From a virus: 35,898 bases of DNA. The notes under the pieces were generated by a model that had not been told where the DNA came from, did no database searches, and was given only the letters and a program-made list of their open reading frames with translations. This document shows positions 1,915 to 13,973 of this stretch, in pieces. The translations under genes were made by a program, and so were the position numbers. The number at the start of each line of letters is the position of its first letter. Position 1 is the stretch's first letter. The DNA is taken from IMG/VR virus record IMGVR_UViG_3300034375_001028, positions 1-35,898 of that record; one strand, 5' to 3'.

Positions 1915-1936
1915 GTATAGTTATACTCTATAGTAT
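1915..1936. promoter_or_regulatory. Dyad symmetry overlapping the leftward promoter, possible operator
   Basis: Two overlapping dyads lie across the -10 and predicted start of the leftward promoter: GTATA-GT-TATAC (1915-1926) and ATACT-CTAT-AGTAT (1923-1936). A regulator bound here would block leftward transcription. They could equally be chance palindromes in AT-rich DNA, and no regulator gene is recognised in the window. Confidence 0.3.
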
Positions 1937-1960
1937 ACCCGTAATATTAAGGTTTGTCAA
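1932..1960 (-). promoter_or_regulatory. Leftward sigma-70 promoter for terminase and late genes
   Basis: On the minus strand, TTGACA (1960-1955) and TATACT (1937-1932) are separated by exactly 17 nt, which is near-perfect sigma-70 consensus. The predicted start is near 1925, about 140 nt before the terminase small subunit. TACGGGTATA spans the spacer end and the -10 box, as it does in the opposing promoter. Confidence 0.75.
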
Positions 1961-1998: not shown

Positions 1999-2027
1999 TT
2001 GACAGATTGCGAATCTACGGGTATAAT
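1999..2027 (+). promoter_or_regulatory. Rightward early sigma-70 promoter
   Basis: TTGACA (1999-2004) and TATAAT (2022-2027) with a 17-nt spacer form a perfect sigma-70 consensus. The predicted start is near 2034. It fires away from the leftward promoter; the two -35 boxes are 38 nt apart. TACGGGTATA (2016-2025) overlaps the -10 box and is shared with the leftward promoter. Confidence 0.85.
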
Positions 2028-2223: not shown

Positions 2224-2539
2224 TTGAAGTCTCTCAAGACTTCAAAAATTTCTAAGATTCTAAAGAATCTATCGAGCGCACACCCTTGAAAATCTCTAAA
2301 GATTTTACAGACTCTCTAGTTTACAAAACTAGGGCAAAGATTTTCGAGTCTTTAAAGCTACGCTTTACTTGGCAATCTCCAAAAATTTCAACGACTTACA
2401 AGCATTTCTAAGCTTCGCTTAAATCCACTCTTGAGACTTTTAAAGTCTCCCATAATTCTATCGCACACGAAATTTATTTATAATAAATTTTGAACAAATT
2501 TTAGACCTTTAAAGACTTTAAAATGTCTTTAAAGGTCTA
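2224..2539 (+). repeat. Array of mini-hairpins in the early leader; no gene seen
   Basis: The 1852-2614 gap has no convincing rightward ORF. Within it lies a chain of short perfect inverted repeats: TTGAAGTCT/AGACTTCAA (2224-2245), AGATTC/GAATCT (2255-2270), AAAATCT/AGATTTT (2289-2306), CTAGTTT/AAACTAG (2316-2332), TAAAGC/GCTTTA (2353-2367), TAAGC/GCTTA (2409-2421), a GAGACTTT/AAAGTCTC dyad (2433-2449), AAATTTATT/AATAAATTT (2470-2490), and a 15-bp stem TAGACCTTTAAAGAC with its complement (2502-2539). The arm sequences differ, so these are not copies of one repeat. They are independent foldbacks, many with 3-nt loops. Possible roles are leader RNA structure, RNase processing, an origin or a packaging site. 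The AT-rich 2450-2540 stretch is the likeliest place to melt. Confidence 0.7.
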
Positions 2540-2543
2540 CTAA

Positions 2544-2610
2544 GTTCTCCAAATGAAAAAGTTGTTAGTAAGTTTCTAACGAAACTAACAACTTTTACAT
2601 TTTGGAGAAC
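2544..2610 (+). promoter_or_regulatory. Long 5' UTR hairpin that pairs the ribosome-binding site (twin element 1)
   Basis: GTTCTCCAAA (2544-2553) pairs perfectly with TTTGGAGAAC (2601-2610). The helix continues with one bulge and one mismatch through AAAAGTTGTTAG. At its tip are GTTAG/CTAAC, a 4-nt TAAG bulge, TTTC/GAAA and a TAAC tetraloop. The GGAG Shine-Dalgarno of the gene starting at 2615 lies inside the stem, so translation should need the stem to be opened or cleaved. The tip architecture recurs at 3719-3774. Confidence 0.7.
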
Positions 2611-2614
2611 TAAT

Positions 2615-3052
2615 ATGGCTTCAGCAACTTTCAGCAAAATCGACAACAATCAAATTGCAACACAACGTCAAGTCTACGGAGTAGCTTGTCATTTCGCTAA
2701 TATAGCTAGTAAGACTCCTACGGAGAGATATGGCTTAACCAAAGTGTTCAATGCTATATTGAACAAACACTACAAGGATAGCGATAGCTATATGACTCAT
2801 GGCGAAGCCACTGAGTGGTTTGAATGGGATTGTGTTCCACCACAATTCATGTCTCTCATCAAGAAGCCAAAGGCTTCGACAGTTAAAAAGACTGCTAAGT
2901 CTTCGAAGAAATCTACCCCGAAGGGGAAGGCGACAGAAGTTAAATCTACTGCTAAGCCTACGGCTTCCGACAAGAAAATGCAGAAACTTGAGAAACGAGT
3001 AGATATACTCGACAGAAAGCTTGACAAAATCCTTGACGCTTTGACTATGTAA
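2615..3052 (+). CDS. Early basic protein with C-terminal coiled coil, unknown function
   Basis: I do not recognise this 145-residue protein. Residues 1-82 look globular (YGVACHFANIAS, TERYGLTKVFNAIL, EWFEWDCVPPQF). Residues 83-120 are a Lys/Ser/Thr/Ala-rich linker. The last 25 residues form a heptad-like coiled coil (KMQKLEKRVDILDRKLDKIL) that suggests oligomerisation. It is the first gene of the early operon and follows a hairpin that hides its Shine-Dalgarno. The linker DNA is itself built of short inverted repeats, for example GAAGCC/GGCTTC at 2863-2877 and CCCC/GGGG at 2916-2926, so its codon choice seems shaped by RNA or DNA folding. The basic linker would suit nucleic-acid binding, but that is only inference. 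Confidence 0.75.
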   Translation: MASATFSKIDNNQIATQRQVYGVACHFANIASKTPTERYGLTKVFNAILNKHYKDSDSYMTHGEATEWFEWDCVPPQFMSLIKKPKASTVKKTAKSSKKSTPKGKATEVKSTAKPTASDKKMQKLEKRVDILDRKLDKILDALTM

Positions 3053-3065
3053 ATAGTCAATTCGT

Positions 3066-3094
3066 TTGACTCGGACAAGGAAGTCCTGTATAAT
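3066..3094 (+). promoter_or_regulatory. Second early sigma-70 promoter
   Basis: TTGACT (3066-3071), a 17-nt spacer and TATAAT (3089-3094) lie just ahead of the gene at 3127. Dyads surround it: TTGACTAT/ATAGTCAA at 3041-3060 spans the previous stop codon, and GGAC/GTCC at 3073-3086 lies within the spacer. Confidence 0.7.
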
Positions 3095-3126
3095 ATAAAT
3101 CTATTCAACGAGCGAGGTATATAGTT

Positions 3127-3297
3127 ATGGAAAAGTTTTTAGAAAGTGATATACAAGTCTATACAGTTTGGGTTGGTGGTATGGAAGTAAGCCCAGAGTT
3201 ATCTAATAAACAACAAGCTATGGATATAGCTGATGACTGGAAACGAATAGGCTATGATGATGTACAAATAGGTTCTTACTTCAGAAAGGAGCAATAG
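3127..3297 (+). CDS. Small early protein, unknown function
   Basis: A 56-residue acidic protein begins MEKFLESDIQVYTVWVGG and then has ELSNKQQAMDIADDWKRIGYDD, which suggests a beta hairpin followed by a helix. I do not recognise the family. The initiation region GAGGTATATAGTTATGG resembles those of several genes downstream. It is the first gene after the promoter at 3066-3094. Short early phage proteins like this often target a host enzyme, but nothing here shows which one. Confidence 0.7.
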   Translation: MEKFLESDIQVYTVWVGGMEVSPELSNKQQAMDIADDWKRIGYDDVQIGSYFRKEQ

Positions 3298-3301
3298 AGT
3301 T

Positions 3302-3478
3302 ATGAAAAAGTATAAAGTATATTACACTGGTTCTAAAAATGGCTCAATAATGGTTGATGCTAATAGTAATATAGAAGCCGAAGATATGGTTTGGGATTGG
3401 TTGCAAGATAGTGAAATTTCAGAAGATTATCCCATAGCTTTAGATTATGAAATACACTGTAAGGAGTTAATACAATGA
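3302..3478 (+). CDS. Small early protein, paralogue of the 4410 gene
   Basis: A 58-residue acidic protein (MKKYKVYYTG, then VDANSNIEAEDMVWDWL). Its N-terminal beta strands followed by an xAxxxxEAxDxV helix match the protein at 4410-4580 in layout and spacing, and both genes share the same upstream ATAGAGTTATGAAAAA. I take them as diverged duplicates of a small beta-beta-alpha-like domain whose function I do not know. The stop overlaps the next start as ATGA. Confidence 0.7.
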   Translation: MKKYKVYYTGSKNGSIMVDANSNIEAEDMVWDWLQDSEISEDYPIALDYEIHCKELIQ

Positions 3479-3711
3479 ATAGACTTATGCAAGTTTCAAA
3501 CCATTTAGATATAGCTATTGATGCTGATGTTGTTAGATATTGTGATAAGAAGCAGGTAGTTATATCTATGATACGAAGCCCTAGACTTAAAGATAACTGC
3601 TATGCAGTCCATGATGTTAGCTTTGAAGATGGCTGTATGATATTCTGGGGACATTACGATTTAACCTTCGAAGAAGCTGTAGAAAGTTTTAATACTAAAT
3701 CAATTAGATAA
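3475..3711 (+). CDS. Small early protein, unknown function
   Basis: A 78-residue protein containing DADVVRYCDKKQVVISMIRSP, then DVSFEDGCMIFWGHYDLTFEEAVESF. It seems to be an alpha/beta domain ending in a short helix. Its ATG overlaps the previous stop, so translation is coupled. No family is recognised. It is followed by the long hairpin at 3719-3774. Confidence 0.75.
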   Translation: MNRLMQVSNHLDIAIDADVVRYCDKKQVVISMIRSPRLKDNCYAVHDVSFEDGCMIFWGHYDLTFEEAVESFNTKSIR

Positions 3712-3718
3712 TTAAAAT

Positions 3719-3774
3719 GAAGATAAATAATTAGTAAGTAAGTTTCTTACGAACTTACTAATTATTTATTCTTC
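3719..3774 (+). promoter_or_regulatory. Long intercistronic hairpin with UNAC loop (twin element 2)
   Basis: GAAGATAAATAATTA (3719-3733) pairs with TAATTATTTATTCTTC (3759-3774) with one bulged base. The tip is GTAAG/CTTAC, a TAAGT bulge, TTC/GAA and a TTAC tetraloop. It has the same layout as the tip of the 2544-2610 hairpin, but the third base pair of the basal helix is changed on both sides (T-A to A-T). It lies 16 nt ahead of the 3791 start, leaving that Shine-Dalgarno (GGAG, 3781-3784) free. Candidate roles are RNase III-type processing or protection of the downstream mRNA end. Confidence 0.7.
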
Positions 3775-3790
3775 ACAAAAGGAGATGGCG

Positions 3791-4405
3791 ATGTTCAACA
3801 CTCACTGTAAAGCGGTTCAGGAATACTCTCAGCGTAATGCTAACAACATGGCAGATACTGTACTCATGGTAGTTCTATCAATCCAACAGAACTGGTTGTC
3901 AGTCGGTGAGCAGATGGCTGACGTTAGAGCTAACAAGTTAGACTCCAAGTTTCTTTGGGGCAACAAGATTAAGACTTATGAATATCTTATGTCGAATAAA
4001 CATAAGATGTTTGCCCAAGTCAAAGCAGTCCTTAACTCTGGTAAGAGCTATGACGAAAAGGCTTTCAGCCTGATGACAATCTTCCTTAGAGTTGACGGCT
4101 TAGGTTTACCTAAAGCAGGGTTCTGCTGTCAGCTAATAGCAGGAATGGTTGGTTGTATGGACGTTCATAACATTAAGATGTACAACGTAGACCCTAAGAT
4201 TCTGAAGCTGAATCCAAAGCCTAAGACTTTGAAAGCTATGGAAGCTAACGACCAACGAACCAGAACCTATATAGATTTGTGTCATGCTTATGGTTGTGAT
4301 AATCTATGGAACTCATGGTGTGAGAATCTAGCTACAAAATCTAACAGGTGGCAAGATGCTAACCATGTTAGCGAAGTCCACTACACTTATTTGATTGGAG
4401 AATAG
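3791..4405 (+). CDS. HhH-GPD (DNA glycosylase)-like protein
   Basis: A 204-residue mostly helical protein. Residues about 99-128 read RVDGLGLPKAGFCCQ and continue to GCMDVHNIKMY. This resembles the helix-hairpin-helix of base-excision DNA glycosylases (LPGVGxKTA, then VDTHxxR), with Asp124 at the place of the catalytic Asp. The Lys of bifunctional enzymes is absent or shifted by one, and there is no C-terminal Fe-S cysteine set. It might be a monofunctional or purely DNA-binding relative. The residues after the motif (KPKTLKAMEANDQRTRTYIDLCHAYG) are helical. I chose ATG 3791 because ATG 3785 directly abuts GGAG. The assignment is by motif only; an unrelated HhH DNA-binding protein is possible. 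Confidence 0.5.
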   Translation: MFNTHCKAVQEYSQRNANNMADTVLMVVLSIQQNWLSVGEQMADVRANKLDSKFLWGNKIKTYEYLMSNKHKMFAQVKAVLNSGKSYDEKAFSLMTIFLRVDGLGLPKAGFCCQLIAGMVGCMDVHNIKMYNVDPKILKLNPKPKTLKAMEANDQRTRTYIDLCHAYGCDNLWNSWCENLATKSNRWQDANHVSEVHYTYLIGE

Positions 4406-4409
4406 AGTT

Positions 4410-4580
4410 ATGAAAAAATTTAGAGTTTATATGACTGAAACAGTAGAGTATAGCTATGATGTTGAGGCTAAAAGCCCCGAAGAAGCCAGAGATAAAGTTT
4501 ATCAAGGTGATTATGACGATAAGACTTATGAGGTTTGGGATTCGTTTGATTGTGAAATAAAAGACGTACAGGAGATATAG
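4410..4580 (+). CDS. Small early protein, paralogue of the 3302 gene
   Basis: A 56-residue acidic protein starting MKKFRVYMTETVEYSYDVEAKSPEEA is cited here by key words MKKFRVY, DVEAKSPEEARDKV and DSFDCEI. It looks like strand-strand-helix-strand. A TTG at 4395 would add five codons, but GGAG at 4397-4400 is well spaced for ATG 4410 and the upstream sequence matches the 3302 gene. Function unknown. Confidence 0.7.
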   Translation: MKKFRVYMTETVEYSYDVEAKSPEEARDKVYQGDYDDKTYEVWDSFDCEIKDVQEI

Positions 4581-4582
4581 TT

Positions 4583-4747
4583 ATGACTAATAAAGAATTT
4601 ATTGAAGCAGTATTCGAAGAAGTCTATGGTGATAATGCTATCAACAGAGGCTTCAGTAAACAAGATGTAATTGAAGAATTACAGAACATGAATAACATTA
4701 TCGGTGGCTATGAGAATAGCGAAACCCATGTATGGCACGAGGTATAA
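4583..4747 (+). CDS. Small early protein, unknown function
   Basis: A 54-residue protein (MTNKEFIEAVFEEVYGDNAI, then FSKQDVIEELQNM). It is predicted helical and acidic, with a Shine-Dalgarno (CAGGAG) nine bases upstream. It begins 2 nt after the previous stop. No family recognised. Confidence 0.65.
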   Translation: MTNKEFIEAVFEEVYGDNAINRGFSKQDVIEELQNMNNIIGGYENSETHVWHEV

Positions 4748-4751
4748 GACT

Positions 4752-4916
4752 ATGGAAGATTTAGTATTAGATGTTATCAACCAGATTGAAAAAGATATAG
4801 AAAACAAAGACTTAGCACCGATATATGAACTGCTGTCGATGCTACCCAAAGAAGCACTTGAAGGATATAAGTCGGAGGCAGAAGAATATGACTATCTACA
4901 ACTCGACAACCGATAA
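4752..4916 (+). CDS. Small acidic helical protein, unknown function
   Basis: A 54-residue protein (MEDLVLDVINQIEKDIENKD, then YELLSMLPKEALEGY). It appears fully helical. I use ATG 4752, which follows GAGG at 4739-4742, rather than the in-frame start at 4704, which would run deep into the previous gene. The 3' end overlaps the next gene by 29 nt. Confidence 0.65.
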   Translation: MEDLVLDVINQIEKDIENKDLAPIYELLSMLPKEALEGYKSEAEEYDYLQLDNR

Positions 4917-5088
4917 GCTACCATCATGGTCGGTAGAGTTATTGTACGAAGGCAAGCCGTCTAAACATATCTATTGTCATAGCTATGATGAAGCTAGCAC
5001 AGAGGGTGTACTTCATGGTGGTGCTTACATCATTGCTCGAATAATAGTTGAAGAAGGATATAGAGAATATGTCAAAGGAGAGAACTAA
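4888..5088 (+). CDS. Small early protein, unknown function
   Basis: A 66-residue protein. GGAGG at 4874-4878 positions the ATG at 4888. The sequence includes WSVELLYEGKPSKHIYCHSYDEAS and IIARIIVEEGYREY (key words only), suggesting a small alpha/beta fold. Its stop overlaps the next ATG in TAATG. Confidence 0.65.
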   Translation: MTIYNSTTDKLPSWSVELLYEGKPSKHIYCHSYDEASTEGVLHGGAYIIARIIVEEGYREYVKGEN

Positions 5089-5237
5089 TGAGCGAATATG
5101 ATAGAGGAGTACAAGATTGTATTGATGGACTACCCTGTGATTACAACGGCAACCCAGATTATATAGATGGCTATGCCGACCAGTATGCATTTGAACAGAC
5201 ACAAAACGAAAACTTAATCTTAAAACACGAGGCGTAA
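5088..5237 (+). CDS. Small protein with RMF-like spacing of glycines and aromatics
   Basis: A 49-residue acidic protein reading MSEYDRGVQDCIDGLPC, then NPDYIDGYADQYAFEQ. The pattern (R)G..D.I.G.PC, about ten residues, then Y..GY...Y recalls the layout of ribosome modulation factor (G..AG...CP......W..GW). However, RMF is strongly basic and this protein is acidic, so binding rRNA in the same way is doubtful. I note the similarity only as a lead. Confidence 0.6.
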   Translation: MSEYDRGVQDCIDGLPCDYNGNPDYIDGYADQYAFEQTQNENLILKHEA

Positions 5238-5241
5238 CACT

Positions 5242-5496
5242 ATGGAAACTTTGTTTAACTTTGTAGCATCAGCAGTACATTCACTCGTTTTTAGCGGTAA
5301 GAAAAACGGTAAACTATTCGGTAAGTCTTTTATTGTAAGACGCAGAAGCTCTAAGAACCGCTTCGAAATGAGCAAGGGTAAGTGCTTTAATATCTTACAC
5401 TGCTACAAGTGGGGCTTCTATCTACAGCACAGTGGCTCTAGAGCTATCAGCTTCAACAACATTAAAGACATCAACGGCATCGAAGGAGTCAGCTAA
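5242..5496 (+). CDS. Small basic protein, unknown function
   Basis: An 84-residue basic protein starts METLFNFVASAVHSLVFSG with an amphipathic or weakly hydrophobic N-terminus. It then has KKNGKLFGKSFIVRRRSSKNRFEMSK (key words KSFIVRRRSSKNRF) and YKWGFYLQHSG, suggesting a small beta-rich domain. No family recognised. Its stop overlaps the DUF932 start (TAATG). Confidence 0.65.
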   Translation: METLFNFVASAVHSLVFSGKKNGKLFGKSFIVRRRSSKNRFEMSKGKCFNILHCYKWGFYLQHSGSRAISFNNIKDINGIEGVS

Positions 5497-6437
5497 TGTC
5501 TAACATAACACCTATGTTTCAGAACTACGGTGCTACCCAGTCCCTTAGAGATAAGGGATATGGGTCAGCAGATTTCAATATACATTCAACGCCATTGACT
5601 TATAGCTGTTGGGTTAATGATGGAGCAGGTACAGCTACCAAGCAAAGCTCTAAGTCTGTTATCTATCGCACCGATACAGGTCAAGAGCTAGGAGTTCATG
5701 GTCATGGCTATCAACCAGTAGCACCTAGAAAGATGATAGACTCTACACGTTCTATCATTGAGCGTTCAGATTTAAACACCAGAGACATCGAAGAAACCAT
5801 TAGAACTTCGCATGACGGTGCTAGATGCTTTGTCCAATATACTCTACCTGCTCATACTTATGAGACTCCAGATGGAGATACAGCGTCTCTCAGCCTACTT
5901 GCTACTAGTTCTATTGACGGCACATTCCCGTTTATGATTAGTGCCGCAGCTATACAGTCTGCTTGTACAAATCTACAGGTCTTCATTAGTGGTGAGGTAG
6001 CTGTATATAAAGCTAAGCACACCAAGAGCCTCAACGTAGAGCATGGTGCTAACCTAATCGTCAAAGCACTAGATGTATTCAGCAATGAAAGAGACTTGTG
6101 GAGTTATATGCAGGGCGAGTACGTTAGTTCTGACCAAGCTTTCAAAGAAATATGCCATGCCGTAGGCTCACCAAAGCTTATCGAAGAGTCTCAGCACCAC
6201 TCGCCATCAGCAGTTGTTGACAGGAACAGAGGCACTGGTAAGAACGTAGCTTATATCTGGGATGCTTTCCATAGATATAAAGTACGTCTAGGTCAGAATC
6301 GTTGGGCTTTGTACAATGCCTTTACAGATTGGTCTACTCACTCAGGTGCGTACACCAAAGCATCTAACCGAAACATTGCTTCGGTCAGAGCTAACCGCCA
6401 AGAGATTGTGCGTAAAGCTTTTGCAAGGGCGGCATAA
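5496..6437 (+). CDS. DUF932 phage/plasmid protein
   Basis: A 313-residue protein with the layout of the DUF932 (phage/plasmid-like TIGR03299) family. It has an N-terminal VIYRTDTGQELGVHGHGYQPV segment (key words TGQELGVHGHGYQPV), then TIRTSHDGARCFVQYTLP, a helical IQSACTNLQVF stretch, and a conserved-looking C-terminus with NRGTGKNVAYIWDAFHRYK and LYNAFTDWSTH. Family members are common in phages and plasmids and their biochemical role is unsettled; they are often found among replication or early genes, as here. Start and stop overlap the neighbours by 1 nt, indicating an operon. Confidence 0.8.
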   Translation: MSNITPMFQNYGATQSLRDKGYGSADFNIHSTPLTYSCWVNDGAGTATKQSSKSVIYRTDTGQELGVHGHGYQPVAPRKMIDSTRSIIERSDLNTRDIEETIRTSHDGARCFVQYTLPAHTYETPDGDTASLSLLATSSIDGTFPFMISAAAIQSACTNLQVFISGEVAVYKAKHTKSLNVEHGANLIVKALDVFSNERDLWSYMQGEYVSSDQAFKEICHAVGSPKLIEESQHHSPSAVVDRNRGTGKNVAYIWDAFHRYKVRLGQNRWALYNAFTDWSTHSGAYTKASNRNIASVRANRQEIVRKAFARAA

Positions 6438-6724
6438 TGCTTAGCGACAAGTTAACACCACAAGAGCGTGAGCTTCTAGTAATAACTATGGAAGAATGCT
6501 CGGAGTTAAGCATGGCTTGCAGTAAAATTATCAGGTTCGGTAATGAGATTAAGCACCTAGATAATATACTTCAGGAGGCAGGGGATGTTCTATGTATGGT
6601 TTCCCTGCTTCTTGAGTATGGTTTCTTAGAAGAAGAACCTTTACAGGAAGCAGTTGAAAGTAAATTATCTAAACTTAAACAATGGAGTAGTATAGTTGAT
6701 AACCACAGCGGGAGTGTGCATTAG
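6437..6724 (+). CDS. MazG-like nucleotide pyrophosphohydrolase
   Basis: A 95-residue all-alpha protein. MEECSELSMACSKIIRF supplies the first metal-binding helix (EExxE), and EAGDVLCMVSLLL supplies the second (ExxD). These are the signature acidic residues of MazG/dUTPase-like NTP pyrophosphohydrolases. Such enzymes hydrolyse NTPs or dNTPs to monophosphates and pyrophosphate, and phage versions are thought to adjust nucleotide pools or alarmone signalling. It is shorter than full MazG and has a single domain. Its neighbours (DUF932, SSB, replication genes, RNR further on) fit a nucleotide-metabolism role. The exact substrate cannot be read from sequence. Confidence 0.75.
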   Translation: MLSDKLTPQERELLVITMEECSELSMACSKIIRFGNEIKHLDNILQEAGDVLCMVSLLLEYGFLEEEPLQEAVESKLSKLKQWSSIVDNHSGSVH

Positions 6725-6815
6725 TTTATATGCTTTGGGAGCGTCTATTGATGTAATTGTAGGCGCTACTCTTGTGTCAGCACTAATAGAAATAACTCAC
6801 GTTTATCCAAAATAG
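6714..6815 (+). CDS. Possible 33-residue membrane mini-protein
   Basis: A GTG at 6714, directly after a GGGAG run, opens a short frame (ISLYALGASIDVIVGATLVS, then ALIEITHVYPK). It contains one hydrophobic segment and fills most of the 158-nt gap between two genes, ending just before the next promoter. The spacing between Shine-Dalgarno and start is poor, so it may not be translated. Confidence 0.25.
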   Translation: MCISLYALGASIDVIVGATLVSALIEITHVYPK

Positions 6816-6818
6816 TGC

Positions 6819-6847
6819 TTGACAACAGCAATCTAAATCAGTATAAT
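6819..6847 (+). promoter_or_regulatory. Sigma-70 promoter for the replication genes
   Basis: TTGACA (6819-6824), a 17-nt spacer and TATAAT (6842-6847) form a perfect consensus 35 nt ahead of the SSB gene. It lacks the TACGGGTATA motif of the divergent pair, so it may be regulated differently. Confidence 0.85.
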
Positions 6848-6882
6848 ACCTTTTTAATTTTTAACCACATGGAGAAAATGAT

Positions 6883-7308
6883 ATGGCAATAGTAACAGGA
6901 ACAGCTTATTGGGCAAGTGTAACAACACCGAATACAACTTATGAACCCGTATACACGGTTAATCTAGTTGTTGATGATGATACTGCTAGTGACTTTGAGA
7001 AGCGTGGCTTCCCTACAAAAGATATGGACGAGGGTAAAGCTATCGTAATCAAGCGTAAAGTCAATGGACCTAATGGTATGGTTCGCTCTGCACCTAAGCT
7101 AGTAGACGGACAGAAGAACCCTATTGATGAGCGTGTAGGTAATGGCTCTAAGGTTAAGGTTCAGTACAAGGAGTGGGAGTCAGTATGGAAAGGCAAAACC
7201 TTTAAGGGCTTAGACTTCCAAGCAATGCAAGTGTTAGACTTAGTGTCTGTCGGTTCAGTTGACGGTGGTGAGTTTGACGTAGAGGACGACATGGGAGATG
7301 AACTATAA
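6883..7308 (+). CDS. Single-stranded DNA-binding protein (T7 gp2.5-like)
   Basis: A 141-residue predicted OB-fold protein. It opens with strands (GTAYWASVTTPN, YTVNLVVDDDTA), has basic loops (IVIKRKVNGPNG, KVKVQYKEW), a core FKGLDFQAMQVLDLV, and ends in a strongly acidic tail (EFDVEDDMGDEL). An acidic C-terminal tail that contacts polymerase and helicase is typical of replicative SSBs including T7 gp2.5. It lies just after a consensus promoter and ahead of primase-helicase and polymerase, close to the T7 order. It would coat lagging-strand DNA and aid recombination. The gene has a GGAG Shine-Dalgarno. Confidence 0.75.
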   Translation: MAIVTGTAYWASVTTPNTTYEPVYTVNLVVDDDTASDFEKRGFPTKDMDEGKAIVIKRKVNGPNGMVRSAPKLVDGQKNPIDERVGNGSKVKVQYKEWESVWKGKTFKGLDFQAMQVLDLVSVGSVDGGEFDVEDDMGDEL

Positions 7309-7541
7309 TGCATTACACATATAAAACTGACGATGGCACATCTTATGATGTGTCGTTGTTGGGTGAGCAGGGACAGGGATTGTTCCAACTCATTCAGCAT
7401 AGCGTAACAAAAATCAAAGAGCTAAACAAACAGATACAGGTAATGCAAGCAGGAGCTACGCATATCAAAGCTCTGTTTGAAGCTGAACTCACGGACGAAG
7501 CAATCGTAGAGGATACGGAAGAAGAACCAGAAACTAACTAA
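7308..7541 (+). CDS. Small acidic protein between SSB and helicase, unknown function
   Basis: A 77-residue protein. It opens with a short beta segment (MHYTYKTDDGTSYDVSLLGEQ in brief) and continues as one long helix (LFQLIQHSVTKIKELNKQIQ) and an acidic end (EDTEEEPETN). Its ATG overlaps the SSB stop. I recall similar short proteins next to replication genes in marine phages, without a known role. It could be a replisome accessory factor, but that is a guess from position. Confidence 0.7.
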   Translation: MHYTYKTDDGTSYDVSLLGEQGQGLFQLIQHSVTKIKELNKQIQVMQAGATHIKALFEAELTDEAIVEDTEEEPETN

Positions 7542-7550
7542 GAGGTGCTT

Positions 7551-9206
7551 ATGCCATTTGTTAAACATAACCTACCGTGCCACGAGTGCGGAGGTAGCGA
7601 CCCAGTATCGAAGAACGATGACGGGTCTGCGTATTGCTTTAGTTGCAATACTTATTTTAAACAATATGGCACATCGGAAGTGCAACAAGATACCGTAACG
7701 GACTTTACAAGGTATCAACCGAAGCAGGATGGTGCTAGCTTTAACGCACTCACAGACCGTGGTATTAGCCTAGAGACTGCCAAGAAGTATGGCGTTAAAT
7801 CTACTACTACAGTCGGTGGTCAAGTTACAAGCCATCACTATCCTTTCTTTAGTAACGGAGAACAAGTAGCCACAAAGATACGCAAACAGGATAAACAGTT
7901 TGTGTGGCAGGGTAACTCCAAAGAAACAGGGTTGTTCGGAGAACAGCTCTTCAAATCAGGCGGTAAGTTTATTACTCTAGTCGAGGGTGAGTGTGATGCT
8001 ATGGCAGCATACGAACTGCTAGGTAGTAAATGGTCTGTAGTATCTATCAAGTCAGGAGCACAAGGAGGTGCTCGTGATGTTAAGAATAGCCTAGAGTTTT
8101 TGGAATCGTTTGACACTGTAGTTATATGCTTTGACTCAGACGATGCAGGTAAGAAAGGTGCTAAGGAAATAGCTAAGCTTCTTACTCCCAACAAGGCTAA
8201 GATTATGACACTACCAGAGGGTTACAAAGACCCTAACGATATGCTCAAAGCTAGAAAGCATACAGCATTCGTCAGTGCTTTCTGGGATGCCAAGACGTAT
8301 ACACCGTCAGGCATATTGAATCTATCTACTCAGCTCGATGCTTATCGCAAGCTACAGACAGAGAAGAAAGACTCTATACCATATCCGTGGAATGGCTTGA
8401 ACAGAAAGCTTGAGGGTATGCGACAGGGTGAGTTGGTCACTCTGACAGGTGGTACTGGTCTAGGTAAGTCTAGTGTTACTAGAGAGATTGAACACTGGCT
8501 TATCAACCACACCGAAGACAACGTAGGTATTGTCGCACTAGAGGAGAACTGGAGTCGTACAGCTGAGGGTATTATGTCTATCGAAGCTAACGCTAAGTTG
8601 CACCTCAACAGCGTCAAAGAAGATATAGGCGAAGAGAAACTTCTCGAAACCTACAAGAAAGTATTCATGGATGAGAACGATGGTCGTGTTTGGATTCATG
8701 CACACCTCGGTGTCAATCATCTTGAAGACATCTTCAGCAAGCTACGCTACTTGATTGTGGGGTTAGATTGTAAATGGGTTGTCGTTGACCATCTACACAT
8801 GCTTGTACTCCAAGCACTAGATGGTGATGAGCGTAAAGCTATTGACGGTATCATGCACCGACTGCGCTCCCTTGTAGAAGAGACAGGTGTTGGTATGATA
8901 CTGGTGTCTCACTTGAGGCGTGTCGATGGTAATCGTGGACATGAGAATGGTATTGAGACAGGTCTATCACATCTTCGTGGTAGTCAGTCGATTGCTCAGC
9001 TATCTGATGCAGTTATATCTCTTGAGCGTAATCAGCAATCAGAAGATATTATAGAGGCATCTACCACCAAAGTTCGTGTACTAAAGTCTAGATACACTGG
9101 TGATGTTGGTGTGGCTTGCGGTCTACTGTACGACACAGAGACAGGCAGGCTATCAGAGATACCTAACGATGACCACTATGCAGAACTTGATGGAGATGAA
9201 CTATGA
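7551..9206 (+). CDS. Primase-helicase (T7 gp4-like)
   Basis: A bifunctional 551-residue replication protein. It has an N-terminal zinc ribbon (Cys10, Cys13, Cys29, Cys32), a Toprim primase domain with VEGECD near 144-149 and ICFDSDDAG near 193-201, then a RecA/DnaB-type helicase with Walker A GGTGLGKSS near 295-304, a catalytic Glu in VALEENW, Walker B VVVDHLHML near 410, and a sensor-like VSHLRR. It primes lagging strands and unwinds DNA as a ring hexamer. Length and domain order match T7 gp4 (566 residues). A GTG at 7545 is in frame, but it is part of the GAGGTG Shine-Dalgarno, so ATG 7551 is preferred. It overlaps the polymerase start by 4 nt. Confidence 0.95.
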   Translation: MPFVKHNLPCHECGGSDPVSKNDDGSAYCFSCNTYFKQYGTSEVQQDTVTDFTRYQPKQDGASFNALTDRGISLETAKKYGVKSTTTVGGQVTSHHYPFFSNGEQVATKIRKQDKQFVWQGNSKETGLFGEQLFKSGGKFITLVEGECDAMAAYELLGSKWSVVSIKSGAQGGARDVKNSLEFLESFDTVVICFDSDDAGKKGAKEIAKLLTPNKAKIMTLPEGYKDPNDMLKARKHTAFVSAFWDAKTYTPSGILNLSTQLDAYRKLQTEKKDSIPYPWNGLNRKLEGMRQGELVTLTGGTGLGKSSVTREIEHWLINHTEDNVGIVALEENWSRTAEGIMSIEANAKLHLNSVKEDIGEEKLLETYKKVFMDENDGRVWIHAHLGVNHLEDIFSKLRYLIVGLDCKWVVVDHLHMLVLQALDGDERKAIDGIMHRLRSLVEETGVGMILVSHLRRVDGNRGHENGIETGLSHLRGSQSIAQLSDAVISLERNQQSEDIIEASTTKVRVLKSRYTGDVGVACGLLYDTETGRLSEIPNDDHYAELDGDEL

Positions 9207-10963
9207 ATATAGTATTTGATATTGAGGCTGATGGACTAGAACCTACTAAGATATATTGTATTGTTGCACAAGACGTAGACACAGGCGATGTGTTTACGTT
9301 TGACAATACACAGCTCGAAGCAGGTTACTTATTCCTGAAGTCAGCAACAAAACTTATAGGTCATAACATCATTGGCTATGACCTACCTGCCCTCAAGAAA
9401 GTAGAGGGTATAGATTTATCTGACAAGAAGATTGTAGATACACTTGTACTGTCTAGATTGTTTAAGCCTACTCGTGAGGGTGGTCATGGTCTAGAATCAT
9501 GGGGCTATCGCTTAGGATACAACAAGGGTAGCTATGGTCAGTCAGACGGTGCGTGGGATGCGTACTGCGAAGAGATGCTAGAGTATTGTAAGCGTGATGT
9601 TATACTCAATACTAAAGTCTATAACGAACTACGCAAGGAGAGTCGTGGATTTACTGGTCAGTCAGTCAGACTAGAACATGATGTAGCTAGAATTGTAGAG
9701 CAACAACGAGCCAACGGCTTTCAGTTTGATATGCGTAAGGCTATGCTTCTTGTAGCTTTGTTTGAAGAGAAGCTAGCCGCAGTTGAGTCTGAAGTGCATG
9801 AAACATTCAAGCCTCGTGTAAACGTACAGATTCTTAGTCCGCAGTATACTAAGACTAACAGGCTAGCTAAGACTGCTAAAGACCAAGACGATAAAGGTGT
9901 TCGCCTTACCGATGACGAGTGGGTGGAGATGGAGTTAAACGGTAAACCCATCAGGCGTGAGACAGAGATACCTTTTAATCTAGGCTCACGTAAACAGATA
10001 GGTGAGTATCTAGTCGAGGCAGGTTGGAAGCCTAAGAACTATACACCAACAGGTCAGCCGATAGTTGACGAGGGTACACTGTCTAAGGTTAAAGACATAC
10101 CCGAAGCACAGATGATAGCTAAGTACCTGATGCTACAGAAACGATTAGCGCAGGTCAACAGTTGGATTAAGGCAGTAGAACCTGACGGCAGGGTACGAGG
10201 GTACGTCAATCCTAACGGTGCAGTAACAGGACGTATGACACACAGCCACCCTAACACGGCACAAGTACCTAGCACTAACTCACCCTATGGTGAAGAGTGT
10301 AGAGCTTGTTGGACTGTTAAGTCTGGTAACAAACTGGTTGGCATTGATGCTTCTGGATTAGAGCTAAGAATGCTAGCACATTACATGAACGATGAGGACT
10401 ATACAAATGAAATACTCAACGGAGACATTCACACAACTAACCAAAAGCTTGCAGGACTTGAATCTAGAAATCAGGCAAAGACTTTCATCTATGCCCTCTT
10501 ATACGGAGCAGGAGATGCAAAGCTTGGGTCAGTGGCTAAGCGAGGCAAGGCAGTCGGTAAACAACTGCGAAGACAGTTTCTTGATAGTTTACCATCATTT
10601 AAACAGCTTATCCAACGAGTTCAAAGAGAGAGCAAGAAAGGATTTCTAAAAGGTCTGGACGGACGTAAGCTCTTTGTACGAAGTGAACACGCTGCTCTCA
10701 ACACATTGTTGCAAGGTGCAGGCGCTATAGTTATGAAAGAAGCATTGGTTATACTTGAGCACAATCTATGGCTCAAGCGTATTGATGCTAAGATAGTAGC
10801 TAATGTACACGATGAATGGCAGATAGAGTGTCGTCCATCAGTAGCGGACAAGGTTGGTCAGTTAGGAATTGAAGCTATAATACAGGCAGGTAAGAACTTA
10901 AACTTAAACTGTCCTCTTGATGGGGACTACAACATCGGAGATGGTTGGCATGAAACCCACTAA
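9203..10963 (+). CDS. DNA polymerase I-type (family A), T7-like
   Basis: A 586-residue replicative polymerase. The N-terminal 3'-5' proofreading exonuclease has FDIEADG (Asp6, Glu8), GHNIIGYDLPAL and YCKRDV. The polymerase has GRMTHSHPNTAQVPS, motif A (IDASGLELRML, Asp near 382), motif B (RNQAKTFIYALLYGAG, near 421-436) and motif C (VHDEW, His near 536). The motif B residue matching E. coli Phe762 is Tyr, as in T7 polymerase, a type that accepts dideoxynucleotides well and is common in virulent phages. It is about 120 residues shorter than T7 gp5, so a thioredoxin-binding insert may be reduced or missing. Its ATG overlaps the helicase stop, and its last codons overlap the next gene. Confidence 0.95.
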   Translation: MNIVFDIEADGLEPTKIYCIVAQDVDTGDVFTFDNTQLEAGYLFLKSATKLIGHNIIGYDLPALKKVEGIDLSDKKIVDTLVLSRLFKPTREGGHGLESWGYRLGYNKGSYGQSDGAWDAYCEEMLEYCKRDVILNTKVYNELRKESRGFTGQSVRLEHDVARIVEQQRANGFQFDMRKAMLLVALFEEKLAAVESEVHETFKPRVNVQILSPQYTKTNRLAKTAKDQDDKGVRLTDDEWVEMELNGKPIRRETEIPFNLGSRKQIGEYLVEAGWKPKNYTPTGQPIVDEGTLSKVKDIPEAQMIAKYLMLQKRLAQVNSWIKAVEPDGRVRGYVNPNGAVTGRMTHSHPNTAQVPSTNSPYGEECRACWTVKSGNKLVGIDASGLELRMLAHYMNDEDYTNEILNGDIHTTNQKLAGLESRNQAKTFIYALLYGAGDAKLGSVAKRGKAVGKQLRRQFLDSLPSFKQLIQRVQRESKKGFLKGLDGRKLFVRSEHAALNTLLQGAGAIVMKEALVILEHNLWLKRIDAKIVANVHDEWQIECRPSVADKVGQLGIEAIIQAGKNLNLNCPLDGDYNIGDGWHETH

Positions 10964-11375
10964 AGAAGACAGAAAGAAGTTTGATATTGATTTGCAGTAT
11001 GGAGTTGTGCGTGAAGATAAGATTGCGGATATGCTCACTAACAAAAAGATAGAAGTAAAATCCGAGCGTGACTTGTGGCAGAAGACTGGTAACATCTGCA
11101 TTGAGTATAAGTCTTATGGTAAGCCATCAGGTATTGATGCAACCGAGTCGGACTACTGGTTTCATAATCTATGTATTGGTGATGACGAATACTGTACACT
11201 TGTGTTTAATACTAAGACACTCAAGAAGATTGTAAAGAAACTAGATAGCTTTAAGACTGTATCAGGCGGTGACAACCGTGCAAGCCAGATGTATCTGCTA
11301 AACTTGCAGAAGTTGTTTTCATCTGATGTAATCAAAGCATTCAAGGAGATAGAAGATGAGCACGAAGCCGCTTAA
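10950..11375 (+). CDS. PD-(D/E)XK-type nuclease, small
   Basis: A 141-residue protein. The start region (ATG 10950 behind GGAG 10937-10940) overlaps the polymerase 3' end by 14 nt. The centre reads DIDLQYGVVREDKIADML, then KIEVKSERDLWQKTGNICIEYK. The ExK of IEVKSE followed by Gln/Glu-rich strands is the PD-(D/E)XK nuclease pattern, and GKPSGIDATESDYW is a motif I associate with small phage members of this fold. It may trim or nick DNA during recombination or degrade host DNA. Substrate and polarity are not visible. The fold assignment is moderately secure. Confidence 0.65.
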   Translation: MKPTKEDRKKFDIDLQYGVVREDKIADMLTNKKIEVKSERDLWQKTGNICIEYKSYGKPSGIDATESDYWFHNLCIGDDEYCTLVFNTKTLKKIVKKLDSFKTVSGGDNRASQMYLLNLQKLFSSDVIKAFKEIEDEHEAA

Positions 11376-12219
11376 AAATGTAGTACCTGACATATATAAG
11401 ATGCTAGAAAGTGTATCACAGGGTGAGCCTCTTCCAATAACGGAGGAGGCGCTTGATGAAACTATGGCATCTATGAAAGAAGCTATCATGCATTGGGCTA
11501 CTCCACGTAAACGTGACACAGACTTCACACTTCGTATGTCTAACGTAGGTAAACCTCAGCGACAGTTGTGGTTTGAGAAGCGTGACGAAGATACTAAAGG
11601 AGATGTAGATGGTCCTACTCAGATTAAGTTCTTGTATGGACACATACTCGAAGAGCTTGTACTTATGCTTGTACGTATGGCAGGACATGAAGTAACTGAC
11701 GAGCAAAAAGAAGTAGAAGTAAACGGCATCGTAGGTCACATGGACTGTAAGATTAACGGTCAGGTAGTAGATGTTAAGTCTGCATCTAGGTTTGCGTTCC
11801 AGAAGTTTAAGAACGGCACGTTAAATTCGGATGACCCATTCGGTTATCTCGGACAGCTTGCAGGTTACGAGAAAGCAGAGGGTACAGACGGTGGTGGGTT
11901 CTTGGTTATCAACAAGGAGAACGGTGAGCTGTGTATGTTTGAGCCTGATGACTTAGATAAACCTAATATAGAGACTACAATAAATACGCTACGTGATAAT
12001 TTAAAGCTTGACAAACCTCCAGAACTATGTTATACTCCTGTGCCTGACGGTAAAAAAGGTAATATGAGATTGCCTAAAGGTTGTTCGTACTGTAAGTATA
12101 AACACGAATGTCACAAGGATGCTAACGATGGTGCAGGTCTAAGGACTTTTAAATACTCTACAGGGTATGCATACCTCACAGAAGTCGTAGCAGAACCCAA
12201 AGTAGAAGAGGTACTATGA
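11356..12219 (+). CDS. RecB/Cas4-like PD-(D/E)XK exonuclease
   Basis: A 287-residue nuclease. After a substrate-binding N-terminus come GHILEELVLMLV (acidic helix), IVGHMDCKINGQVVDVKSAS (Asp and D-V-K catalytic strand), and DDPFGYLGQLAGYEKA (Q-x-x-x-Y motif IV). The C-terminus holds a Cys cluster (LCYTP, then GCSYCKYKHEC), possibly an Fe-S or zinc site as in Cas4/AddB nucleases, although the usual N-terminal Cys is not evident. In T7-like phages the exonuclease (gp6) degrades host DNA and removes primers; this enzyme is unrelated in fold but well placed to do that job. It overlaps both neighbours, and it contains a promoter-like sequence at 12008-12036. Confidence 0.82.
   Translation: MSTKPLKNVVPDIYKMLESVSQGEPLPITEEALDETMASMKEAIMHWATPRKRDTDFTLRMSNVGKPQRQLWFEKRDEDTKGDVDGPTQIKFLYGHILEELVLMLVRMAGHEVTDEQKEVEVNGIVGHMDCKINGQVVDVKSASRFAFQKFKNGTLNSDDPFGYLGQLAGYEKAEGTDGGGFLVINKENGELCMFEPDDLDKPNIETTINTLRDNLKLDKPPELCYTPVPDGKKGNMRLPKGCSYCKYKHECHKDANDGAGLRTFKYSTGYAYLTEVVAEPKVEEVL
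12008..12036 (+). promoter_or_regulatory. Promoter-like sequence inside the exonuclease gene
   Basis: TTGACA (12008-12013), a 17-nt spacer and TATACT (12031-12036) lie in the coding sequence about 180 nt before the next gene. The match is as good as that of the leftward promoter at 1932-1960. It could boost the downstream resolvase-to-RNR genes, but it also encodes LDKPPELCYT, so coincidence is possible. Confidence 0.35.
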
Positions 12220-12509
12220 ATAGAAGACTAAGTAAGCGTATACGGAAACACGCTGAAACTATACAACTTGCGTGGGTTAAGTCGCTGTTGTCGGATGACG
12301 AAGCTAACAAAGTAAATAAAACTAATTTGGCTCAGATGCTTCCAACACAGACCCACGTTTGGGGTATGGGAACTAAATACTGTAGCGTGTTTGGAATGCG
12401 TCACGTTATTAAAAAACTAAAACAACTAATGCGTATTTTTCCCGACAAGCAAGTAGAAGACTTCACACTAGCTGATGTCAACTGGAAGATACAGCAACGT
12501 AAGGTATAG
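12216..12509 (+). CDS. Small basic protein, unknown function
   Basis: A 97-residue basic protein begins MNRRLSKRIRKHAETIQLAW and contains THVWGMGTKYCSVFGMRHVIKKLK (key words VWGMGTKYCSVFGMR), ending LADVNWKIQQRKV. It looks helical with a central Gly/aromatic loop. Its ATG overlaps the exonuclease stop, and the resolvase follows 5 nt later, so it could be a recombination or nuclease accessory factor, though only position supports that. Confidence 0.7.
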   Translation: MNRRLSKRIRKHAETIQLAWVKSLLSDDEANKVNKTNLAQMLPTQTHVWGMGTKYCSVFGMRHVIKKLKQLMRIFPDKQVEDFTLADVNWKIQQRKV

Positions 12510-12514
12510 CACGG

Positions 12515-12982
12515 ATGGCTAAAATAAGGAAAGGCTACAGGAAAGCAAGAGTTAAACGCCCAGTTGAAAAGGATTTGGTTAAGGGCTACGACTCTAATTG
12601 GGAGTATCAACTTCACTCAGGCATTTTAGACGGATGGGAGCATCACGTTGATAAGGTAGAGTATACTGTGGAGCATAAGTACGAACCCGATTTTGTAAGA
12701 GTTATCAACGGTAAGAAGATATTACTAGAAGCCAAAGGACGGTTCTGGGATAGTGCTGAGTACAGTAAGTACGTATGGATAGCCAAAGCACTGCCAGATG
12801 ACATCGAACTGGTTTTCCTGTTTGCTAATCCTAATGCTCCGATGCCACAGGCTAAGGTCAGAAAGGACGGCACTAAACGCTCCCACGCTGAGTGGGCTGA
12901 GGCAAATAGCTTTAGATGGTTTAGTGAAGATAGTATACCTGATGATTGGATTAACAAAAAGAAGAGAGAGACATTTGAATGA
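12515..12982 (+). CDS. Endonuclease I, Holliday junction resolvase (T7 gp3-like)
   Basis: A 155-residue junction-cleaving nuclease. Key elements match T7 endonuclease I in order: a SNWEYQLHSG helix with catalytic Glu, HKYEPDFV with the PD-type Asp, ILLEAKGRFWDSAEYSKY with the ExK pair, IELVFLFANPNAPM, a SHAEWAEANSF segment, and a C-terminal IPDDWINKK. It would resolve branched replication intermediates before packaging and help degrade host DNA. Size is close to T7 gp3 (149 residues). The N-terminus is very basic (KIRKGYRKARVKRP), likely contacting DNA. The stop overlaps the next start. Confidence 0.9.
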   Translation: MAKIRKGYRKARVKRPVEKDLVKGYDSNWEYQLHSGILDGWEHHVDKVEYTVEHKYEPDFVRVINGKKILLEAKGRFWDSAEYSKYVWIAKALPDDIELVFLFANPNAPMPQAKVRKDGTKRSHAEWAEANSFRWFSEDSIPDDWINKKKRETFE

Positions 12983-13320
12983 AACGAGAACCTACATTTG
13001 AAGAGTACATGCGTGACTTAAACTCGCATTGGGTTTACGATAGCACTAGAGGTACAGACCCAGAGGTAACTGCTGACTCAGAAGACTTTGCTGATTGTTG
13101 GGACAATGACCCTGTAAATAATCCTGCTCACTATAACACAGGTAAGGTAGAATGCATTGAAGCTATTGAAGAGTCTATGAGTCTTGACCAGTTTCAAGGT
13201 TATCTCAAAGGCAACTGCCAAAAGTATATATGGCGCATGTCTTACAAGGGCAAAGCTTTAGAAGACTTAAAGAAAGCAAGATGGTATTTAGATAAACTAA
13301 TTAAGTCACATGAAGCGTAA
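12979..13320 (+). CDS. DUF3310 protein
   Basis: A 113-residue protein whose second half carries the DUF3310 signature: DPVNNPAHYNTGKVECIEAIE (key word NNPAHY), FQGYLKGNCQKYIWR, and LEDLKKARWYLDKLI. Members are widespread in phages, sometimes labelled nucleotide-kinase-like on weak grounds, and their role is unproven. The first half is acidic and variable. It overlaps the resolvase stop and the next small gene. Confidence 0.85.
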   Translation: MKREPTFEEYMRDLNSHWVYDSTRGTDPEVTADSEDFADCWDNDPVNNPAHYNTGKVECIEAIEESMSLDQFQGYLKGNCQKYIWRMSYKGKALEDLKKARWYLDKLIKSHEA

Positions 13321-13483
13321 TAAGTGGTGGCGTATATGGGCAAAGTCTCTTGGAGAAAAAGTTGGGGAGACTAACAGCCAAGCAGATACTGTTGCGTTTA
13401 TACGAACATTCTGGTGGGTTGTGCACATAGCCACATGCTTTATGATTATATTAAATAACTCTAAAAACTTAGGTTGGTGGTAA
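13310..13483 (+). CDS. Small Trp-rich membrane protein
   Basis: A 57-residue protein (MKRNKWWRIWAKSLGEKVGE, then FIRTFWWVVHIATCFMIIL). It has one predicted transmembrane helix (about residues 32-49) with a basic, Trp-rich N-terminus likely facing the cytoplasm. The start overlaps the DUF3310 end by 11 nt and the stop overlaps the next ATG (TAATG). I recall similar short membrane proteins in marine phages; function unknown. Confidence 0.7.
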   Translation: MKRNKWWRIWAKSLGEKVGETNSQADTVAFIRTFWWVVHIATCFMIILNNSKNLGWW

Positions 13484-13632
13484 TGGACAGGAAAGAAGAG
13501 CGCAGGAATCAGTTTGCTCGGAAAAAAAAGTTTAAGAAGTATACGAGGTCTAGCAAAGCTAAGACTGCAAGAAAAAAACAAATGAGGAAAGAATATGACG
13601 TACCAGTTTTGGAACAGATTATGGACGATTGA
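13483..13632 (+). CDS. Very basic 49-residue protein
   Basis: MDRKEERRNQFARKKKFKKY, then KTARKKQMRKEYDVPVLEQ. About 40 percent of residues are Lys or Arg, suggesting nucleic-acid binding or disorder. It overlaps the previous stop by 1 nt and the next gene by 38 nt. No family recognised. Confidence 0.55.
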   Translation: MDRKEERRNQFARKKKFKKYTRSSKAKTARKKQMRKEYDVPVLEQIMDD

Positions 13633-13798
13633 GTTTAGAAACGGAGTAGGGTTTGATATTGAGTTTGCTGACAGCCGTCCTGTTTGGACAGTTAGAGATG
13701 GCGAACACGATGTAATGCCTTTTTGTGGGACAGTAATACTACTGCCCTTTATCACTATAACGATTGGAAATGTCTGGGAGGAAATAGACGATGAGTAA
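13595..13798 (+). CDS. Small protein with one hydrophobic segment, unknown function
   Basis: A 67-residue protein (MTYQFWNRLWTIEFRNGVGF, then VMPFCGTVILLPFITITIG). It has a soluble beta-like first half and one hydrophobic segment of about 17 residues near the end, so it may be a membrane protein. It is nested between overlapping neighbours (38 nt upstream, 8 nt downstream). Confidence 0.6.
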   Translation: MTYQFWNRLWTIEFRNGVGFDIEFADSRPVWTVRDGEHDVMPFCGTVILLPFITITIGNVWEEIDDE

Positions 13799-13973
13799 AG
13801 ATTGGAGTTTTGAATTGACACAAAAACAAAAGCTAGCGTTAAAAGCATTGGGATTGTTTGTAATCTCTCCAGTGTATGTGCCTGTAATGATACTGTGGGA
13901 TAACCGCAAAGATATTGTAGGTTTCTACAAAGAGTTTTGGGCAGCAATAACCTTTGGAGATTTTAATGGATAA
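13791..13973 (+). CDS. Small protein with one hydrophobic segment, unknown function
   Basis: A 60-residue protein (LTQKQKLALKALGLFVISPVYV in brief, then MILWDNRKDIVGFYKEFW). One hydrophobic helix lies at about residues 19-35. It ends 8 nt inside the RNR gene and is the last of four small proteins between DUF3310 and RNR. Confidence 0.6.
   Translation: MSKDWSFELTQKQKLALKALGLFVISPVYVPVMILWDNRKDIVGFYKEFWAAITFGDFNG

Follow-up and report, generated by a model that had tools for sequence, protein, structure and literature searches.

Cis-acting hairpins before phage early genes are a known kind of element, and several described systems resemble the one reported here. The hairpin promoters of the N4 virion RNA polymerase (vRNAP) have a stem of 5-7 bp, a loop of 3 nt and a conserved start site. 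MS2 coat operators and iron-responsive elements have a 4-nt loop with a bulge on the 5' side 3 bp beneath it, close to a ribosome-binding site, and the protein bound to an MS2-like translational operator represses translation. HK022 put RNA consists of two tandem hairpins in the early leader, and in put-type processive antitermination terminators are read through without a phage protein. The RNase III sites of T7 are not known for combining an unvarying tip with perfect stems of unrelated sequence. The polycistronic early mRNA of T7 has five sites at which RNase III cuts it (PMC4858673). In N4 promoters the variable stem bases are unconstrained provided that the hairpin is preserved (PMC4496689). 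Polymerase template switching is known to give arm homogenisation and spacer inversion (PMC8604942), and it can also create and maintain RNA hairpins (PMC8794818).

The DNA analysed here is a virus record of 35,898 bases, referred to as the window, with its early gene block on the + strand (2615-15849) and its late genes on the - strand. The early block includes genes for a DUF932 protein, a gp2.5-like SSB, primase/helicase, DNA polymerase, a Cas4-like exonuclease, endonuclease I and ribonucleotide reductase. The primase is about 45% identical to primases of Pelagibacter and Roseobacter phages, and going by such relatives the phages with the element appear to be aquatic. A tRNA search of the window found none. 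At the early/late boundary (1932-2027) a near-perfect pair of sigma70-type promoters stands back to back, one serving the leftward, late operon (TTGACA-17-TATACT; 1932..1960, - strand) and the other the early operon (TTGACA-17-TATAAT; 1999..2027, + strand). This divergent pair recurs in six related contigs (G001, G002, G003, G004, G008 and G016), and all six related contigs scanned have an orthologous early-operon promoter. A second early promoter (TTGACT-17-TATAAT) is located at 3066..3094 on the + strand, and altogether good sigma70 promoters are found both ahead of the leader and inside the operon (1999-2027, 3066-3094, 6819-6847 and 12008-12036). These are strict consensus matches only; a lenient scan was uninformative (background rate 84%). 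The first early gene (2615..3052, + strand; 145 aa) is weakly similar to phrog_17155 and has no Pfam or NCBIfam match above cut-off.

Two long hairpins with matching tips had been proposed in an earlier note on this DNA, and both are borne out, with full extents of 2543-2611 and 3718-3775. The first, hairpin A (2543..2611, + strand), has a 13-bp upper stem (2557-2569/2584-2596) separated by an A.A mismatch from a lower stem (2543-2553/2601-2611), in which the Shine-Dalgarno sequence GGAGA of the first early gene is paired (2604..2608, + strand); its conserved tip is AGTAAGTTTCTAACGAAACT (2567..2586, + strand). The second, hairpin B (3718..3775, + strand), is composed of a 17-bp stem (3723-3739/3753-3769), a 1-nt 3' bulge and a 6-bp base, and carries the tip AGTAAGTTTCTTACGAACT (3737..3755, + strand). 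Its Shine-Dalgarno sequence lies immediately 3' of the hairpin and is unpaired. Hairpin B is unchanged in several relatives despite diverged flanks. RNAfold gave -31.7 kcal/mol for hairpin A (shuffled mean -10.1, z -9.1) and -24.2 kcal/mol for hairpin B (shuffled mean -7.6, z -7.2), and none of 200 shuffles matched the native energy of either. The two rank among the longest short-range inverted repeats of the window, and the tip AGTAAGTTTCTNACGAA occurs there at exactly two sites, with no third even when 3 mismatches are allowed. The window and seven related loci gave no Rfam match above the gathering score.

Hairpins A and B are members of an undescribed family present in dozens of uncultured phage sequences, all built on the plan of a near-invariant tip, AGTRAGTTCTNACGAACT, atop stems of unrelated sequence; the dissimilarity of the outer stems, first remarked for this pair, thus holds across the family. 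The homologue set for the gene behind hairpin B comprised 65 loci, and in about 20 close relatives a hairpin stands at the same place before the homologue of this gene, with differing stems and few tip classes. Listing all long hairpins gave the classes AGT-RAGTTCTTACGA-ACT, AAG-AAGTTCAGAATGAA-CTT, AAG-AAGTCATTTATGA-CTT and CCC-CTTTACAGGGTAAA-GGG. The window and seven assembled contigs have a few tip-bearing hairpins each, all within the early gene block, and a scan of IMG/VR for the tip brought in additional phages, single records of which hold as many as 6 or 7 model matches. These many homologues support the suggestion that the pair represents an element under selection, present more than once in a single early operon.

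Across the family the stems measure 8-29 bp, with a recurrent interruption some 13-17 bp below the tip. Over these unrelated stems the tip keeps about 15 positions invariant, part of this invariance being imposed by the search pattern, and no flipped loop orientation was seen in the main class. Copies are mostly intergenic, and stemmed hairpins are oriented toward a gene starting within 150 nt (44 sense versus 2 antisense); tips without a perfect stem show no orientation bias (5 versus 6). The ~20-kb stretches scanned of HTVC103P, CRP-403, uvMED S28-C10, HTVC168P and CRP-9 contain no family hairpin, and one weak model match among cultured or named relatives was judged on inspection to be a chance hit. 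Two family hairpins, run by BLAST against 50,697 phage records, gave short partial matches only. A literature search, which covered few subscription journals, found no description of the motif.

The opposed T-A and A-T pairs in the tips of hairpins A and B had been taken as a compensatory change. With two paralogous copies this is weak evidence alone, and the real evidence is supplied by the family. Among 89 distinct phage tip occurrences, a sample independent of selecting stems, 56 continue into at least five further perfect pairs, formed by 23 different 5-mers, while the chance of five extra perfect pairs is about 0.1% per occurrence. In about 20 of the remaining tips the stem is interrupted by one mismatch. 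In a control of 84,980 bacterial and archaeal genomes none of the 11 exact tip matches has a stem, and host prophages or bacterial genomes were on this ground rejected as carriers. A covariation alignment was built from 45 gapless sequences, none from the window, which were chosen for having stems and are hence biased when taken alone. Here 92.7% of cells pair, and pair changes affecting both sides number 163, compared with 51 after shuffling and 27-52 after sliding; the nine outer pairs jointly show all Watson-Crick types, most of them all four. A covariance model built from these 45 sequences, and so without the window copies, still finds hairpin B (3728-3764, E 1.1e-9) and hairpin A (2558-2595, E 4.1e-7). 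It is also positive in 18 of 20 other contigs, a count that is not independent since several of them supplied model sequences. Both further copies and covariation were therefore found, and the proposed element was not refuted.

The manner in which the stems change nevertheless departs from ordinary RNA selection. RNA function should tolerate G-U above A-C, each one transition away, and family stems have 11 G-U against 13 A-C (5:6 in the inner 10 bp). Terminator-like hairpins from the same loci, taken as control, have 24 G-U against 2 A-C (Fisher p 0.0005 for all pairs and 0.004 for the inner 10 bp), in a comparison that is small, uses one type of control hairpin and removes relatedness only roughly. 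Comparisons between nearest relatives revealed 69 both-side pair changes, and 2 changes from Watson-Crick to G-U. In class C, the loop AGG of L350 and L366 is inverted to CCT relative to L083, the hairpins otherwise matching. Because both-side changes without G-U and an inverted loop are as expected from template switching, we infer that the stems probably evolve by this DNA process, and hence stem covariation alone cannot prove RNA function. The lack of a G-U preference fits either DNA template switching or a DNA-level role. Hairpins ascribed to template switching likewise have perfect stems, both-side changes without intermediates and loop inversion (PMC8794818), but the process accounts for the evolution of the stems and not for the conserved tip or the conserved position seen here. 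The family would be a natural case of stems whose evolution seems to go by template switching and not by way of G-U intermediates.

The tip had previously been drawn with a 5' bulge, a TTC/GAA helix and a UNAC tetraloop. This form is possible, but nearest-neighbour energies prefer another, in which AGU is followed by a purine 2x2 (or 2x3) internal loop, a GU(U)-AC stem and a UCU(U) loop. The advantage of the alternative is 0.5-1.3 kcal/mol for hairpin A, varying with the drawing of the bulged fold, and 4.0 kcal/mol for hairpin B; for the family consensus, AGU / RA.GA 2x2 loop / GU-AC / UCUU is better by 3.6-4.7 kcal/mol. The internal-loop position R is A or G almost always in the family, and a purine here would suit stacked purine mismatches. 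As to the loop itself, most members have UUAC; UAAC is seldom seen, and some members carry AUAC or a 3-nt UAC. The GNRA-like folding suggested for it suits the sequence of most members, yet belongs to a fold 0.5-4.7 kcal/mol worse than the alternative. Tips of classes B and C suit the bulged form better, and the tip may be dynamic. A reading of the tip as a slipped helix or a-b-a'-b' pseudoknot (GTAA-GTTC-TTAC-GAAC) was dropped, as it is broken by the TAAC variants. The likeness to MS2 operators and iron-responsive elements holds in the bulged fold, whereas the other fold is energetically preferred here; moreover, the element differs from both in its tip sequence, in belonging to dsDNA phages and in having several copies per genome.

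The early leaders share a fixed order of hairpin D, a short linker, hairpin A and the first gene. In the window, hairpin D (2502..2539, + strand) has 15 bp of perfect stem and lies directly on the 5' side of hairpin A, and the tandem D and A before the first gene was found in 16/16 leaders folded. In the window and 15 related leaders, hairpin D has perfect or near-perfect stems of 15-24 bp, often of the form TTAGTA...CT-ATAAA-AG...TACTAA. The distance from the tip of the leader copy to the start codon is usually 27-31 nt, and 43 in one case. In the 13 leader copies of the AGT and AAG classes that were scored, the Shine-Dalgarno sequence is predicted to be paired within hairpin A, and the arm and Shine-Dalgarno sequences differ between phages, changing together (GTTCTCC/GGAGAAC, GTATTCCTT/AAGGAATAC and GTTTCCTT/AAGGAAAC). 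The Shine-Dalgarno sequence is free in the CCC-class leaders (L089, L090 and L358), in most later copies, which lie between genes, and in 44 of the 71 hairpins scored. Judging from the predicted pairing, a hairpin that holds the Shine-Dalgarno sequence should block translation until it is opened or cut. Further upstream, the early leader (2220-2500) has a run of more short inverted repeats that lack clear U-tracts.

The conservation of the tip, the complementarity of the stems, their placement facing a gene and the predicted Shine-Dalgarno sequestration in leader copies are computed properties. The hairpins probably control the expression of the early genes they precede. That they do so as a leader element of the mRNA, with a tip that is recognised and a stem that either gates expression or is cleaved to allow it, is in our estimate an even proposition, with action as RNA favoured over a DNA-level reading. 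Each hairpin would then be a copy of a single cis-acting element that early phage mRNA carries on its sense strand; its near-invariant tip would be the recognition site of a trans-acting factor and its stem a structural platform, free in sequence provided that pairing stays. Since the lower stem of the leader copy holds its Shine-Dalgarno sequence, the first early gene should be translated only after this stem has been opened or cleaved; the most plausible agents would be host RNase III, acting at the interruption in mid-stem or close to it, or a protein that binds the tip. In downstream intergenic copies the same event may separate or protect single-gene mRNAs, like the RNase III sites of T7, and it would be DNA template switching, not stepwise compensation in RNA, that keeps the stems perfect and rewrites them. 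Against action as mRNA stand the finding that G-U is not favoured over A-C, the free Shine-Dalgarno sequence in 44 of the 71 scored hairpins, a promoter within the 5' arm in one group, and a third copy abutting an antisense promoter in some relatives. The search for phage-encoded partners, which also counts against it, gave no RNase III in 18 contigs and no known RNA-binding domain among 33 window proteins scanned. If the mRNA reading is true, a control element that Rfam lacks, and that BLAST with two of its hairpins did not reveal in cultured phage genomes, is common in a mostly uncultured phage group; the family then offers many natural variants that separate the recognised tip from the stem.

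The precedent for cleavage is T7, whose RNase III sites are likewise hairpins located between early genes and shortly ahead of ribosome-binding sites, likewise with an upper and a lower stem and an interruption, in an early operon transcribed by host RNA polymerase. The family also places long double-stranded stems between early genes and ahead of ribosome-binding sites. No T7-like RNA polymerase was found in contigs with the element. The hairpins could be plain RNase III sites or mRNA stabilisers that depend on double-strandedness alone, with the tip kept for fast folding or good capping, as the long near-perfect stems, their recurrent interruption and the T7 early mRNA (PMC4858673) would suggest. 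We regard this as quite unlikely, because the invariant tip positions, even if partly imposed by the search pattern, exceed what capping needs, and RNase III leaves the invariant tip unexplained. Antitermination acting on the transcribing polymerase, as by HK022 put RNA, would agree with the early-operon position and the tandem hairpins of the leaders, but later copies stand singly between genes, near ribosome-binding sites and with no hairpin D, and no bypass of a terminator has been shown; it seems very unlikely. Still less credible, and disfavoured, is a mutational by-product, that is, neutral palindromes yielded by template switching. The both-side changes without G-U intermediates and the class C inversion of AGG to CCT are marks of that process (PMC8794818, PMC8604942), but the conserved tip, the single loop orientation, the gene-facing placement and the conserved positions at orthologous genes are left unexplained.

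A cruciform or single-strand hairpin in the phage DNA, with its tip read by RNA polymerase or another DNA-binding protein as in an N4-like hairpin promoter, would place the transcript start in or after the 3' arm and leave the Shine-Dalgarno sequence free. Several observations agree with it: G-U does not count as a pair in the stems; one group has a promoter-like TTGACA/-10 inside the 5' arm, which might give a transcript without the full hairpin; and a third copy, absent from the window (G003 21208-21294 and G004 17466-17542 in contig coordinates; L113 and L115), abuts the start of a predicted antisense transcript with the promoter TTGACA-17-TATACT or TACAAT. Moreover, N4 vRNAP promoters follow the same plan, with a conserved tip, stem bases that are free if paired, and several copies that face early genes (PMC4496689). 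The shape is different, however, with stems beyond the 5-7 bp of N4 and no start-site consensus seen behind the hairpins, where only the ribosome-binding site recurs. Host-type promoters are also present, good sigma70 sites already serving the operon, and no virion polymerase was identified. A single-subunit RNA polymerase (PF00940) was found in 0/18 contigs and 3/3 control phages with a model that may miss N4-type enzymes; given the sigma70 promoters, the host polymerase therefore probably transcribes through the hairpins. We consider the DNA-level element unlikely. That the family is a widespread and hitherto undescribed phage regulatory system, in which a trans-acting factor of phage or host reads one fixed tip before several early genes and so coordinates their expression, with stems continually rewritten by template switching, is a tentative proposal to which we give rather less than even weight; its strongest form would be a new DNA-level class of hairpin promoter that is not of the N4 type.

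Three further observations concern the wider sequence. A giant protein of the late gene block (28493-35884; 2463 aa) is largely repetitive and Ala/Gln/Glu-rich; it was considered as a virion RNA polymerase and rejected, having no family match, no polymerase motifs in a crude scan and no convincing PDB match. The gene behind hairpin B (3785..4405, + strand; 204-206 aa), for which a start at 3791 suits the Shine-Dalgarno spacing better, belongs to a conserved 206-aa family with no family-library match, and its product gives a confident all-helical model with weak resemblance to HhH-GPD (8-oxoguanine glycosylase-like) proteins. A further tip class, AAGCTC-TATG-GAGCTT, occurs on variable stems of 14-20 bp in the early leaders of some relatives (L039 3182-3238, L040 2404-2460 and L048 3064-3108), the L048 copy being on the opposite strand.
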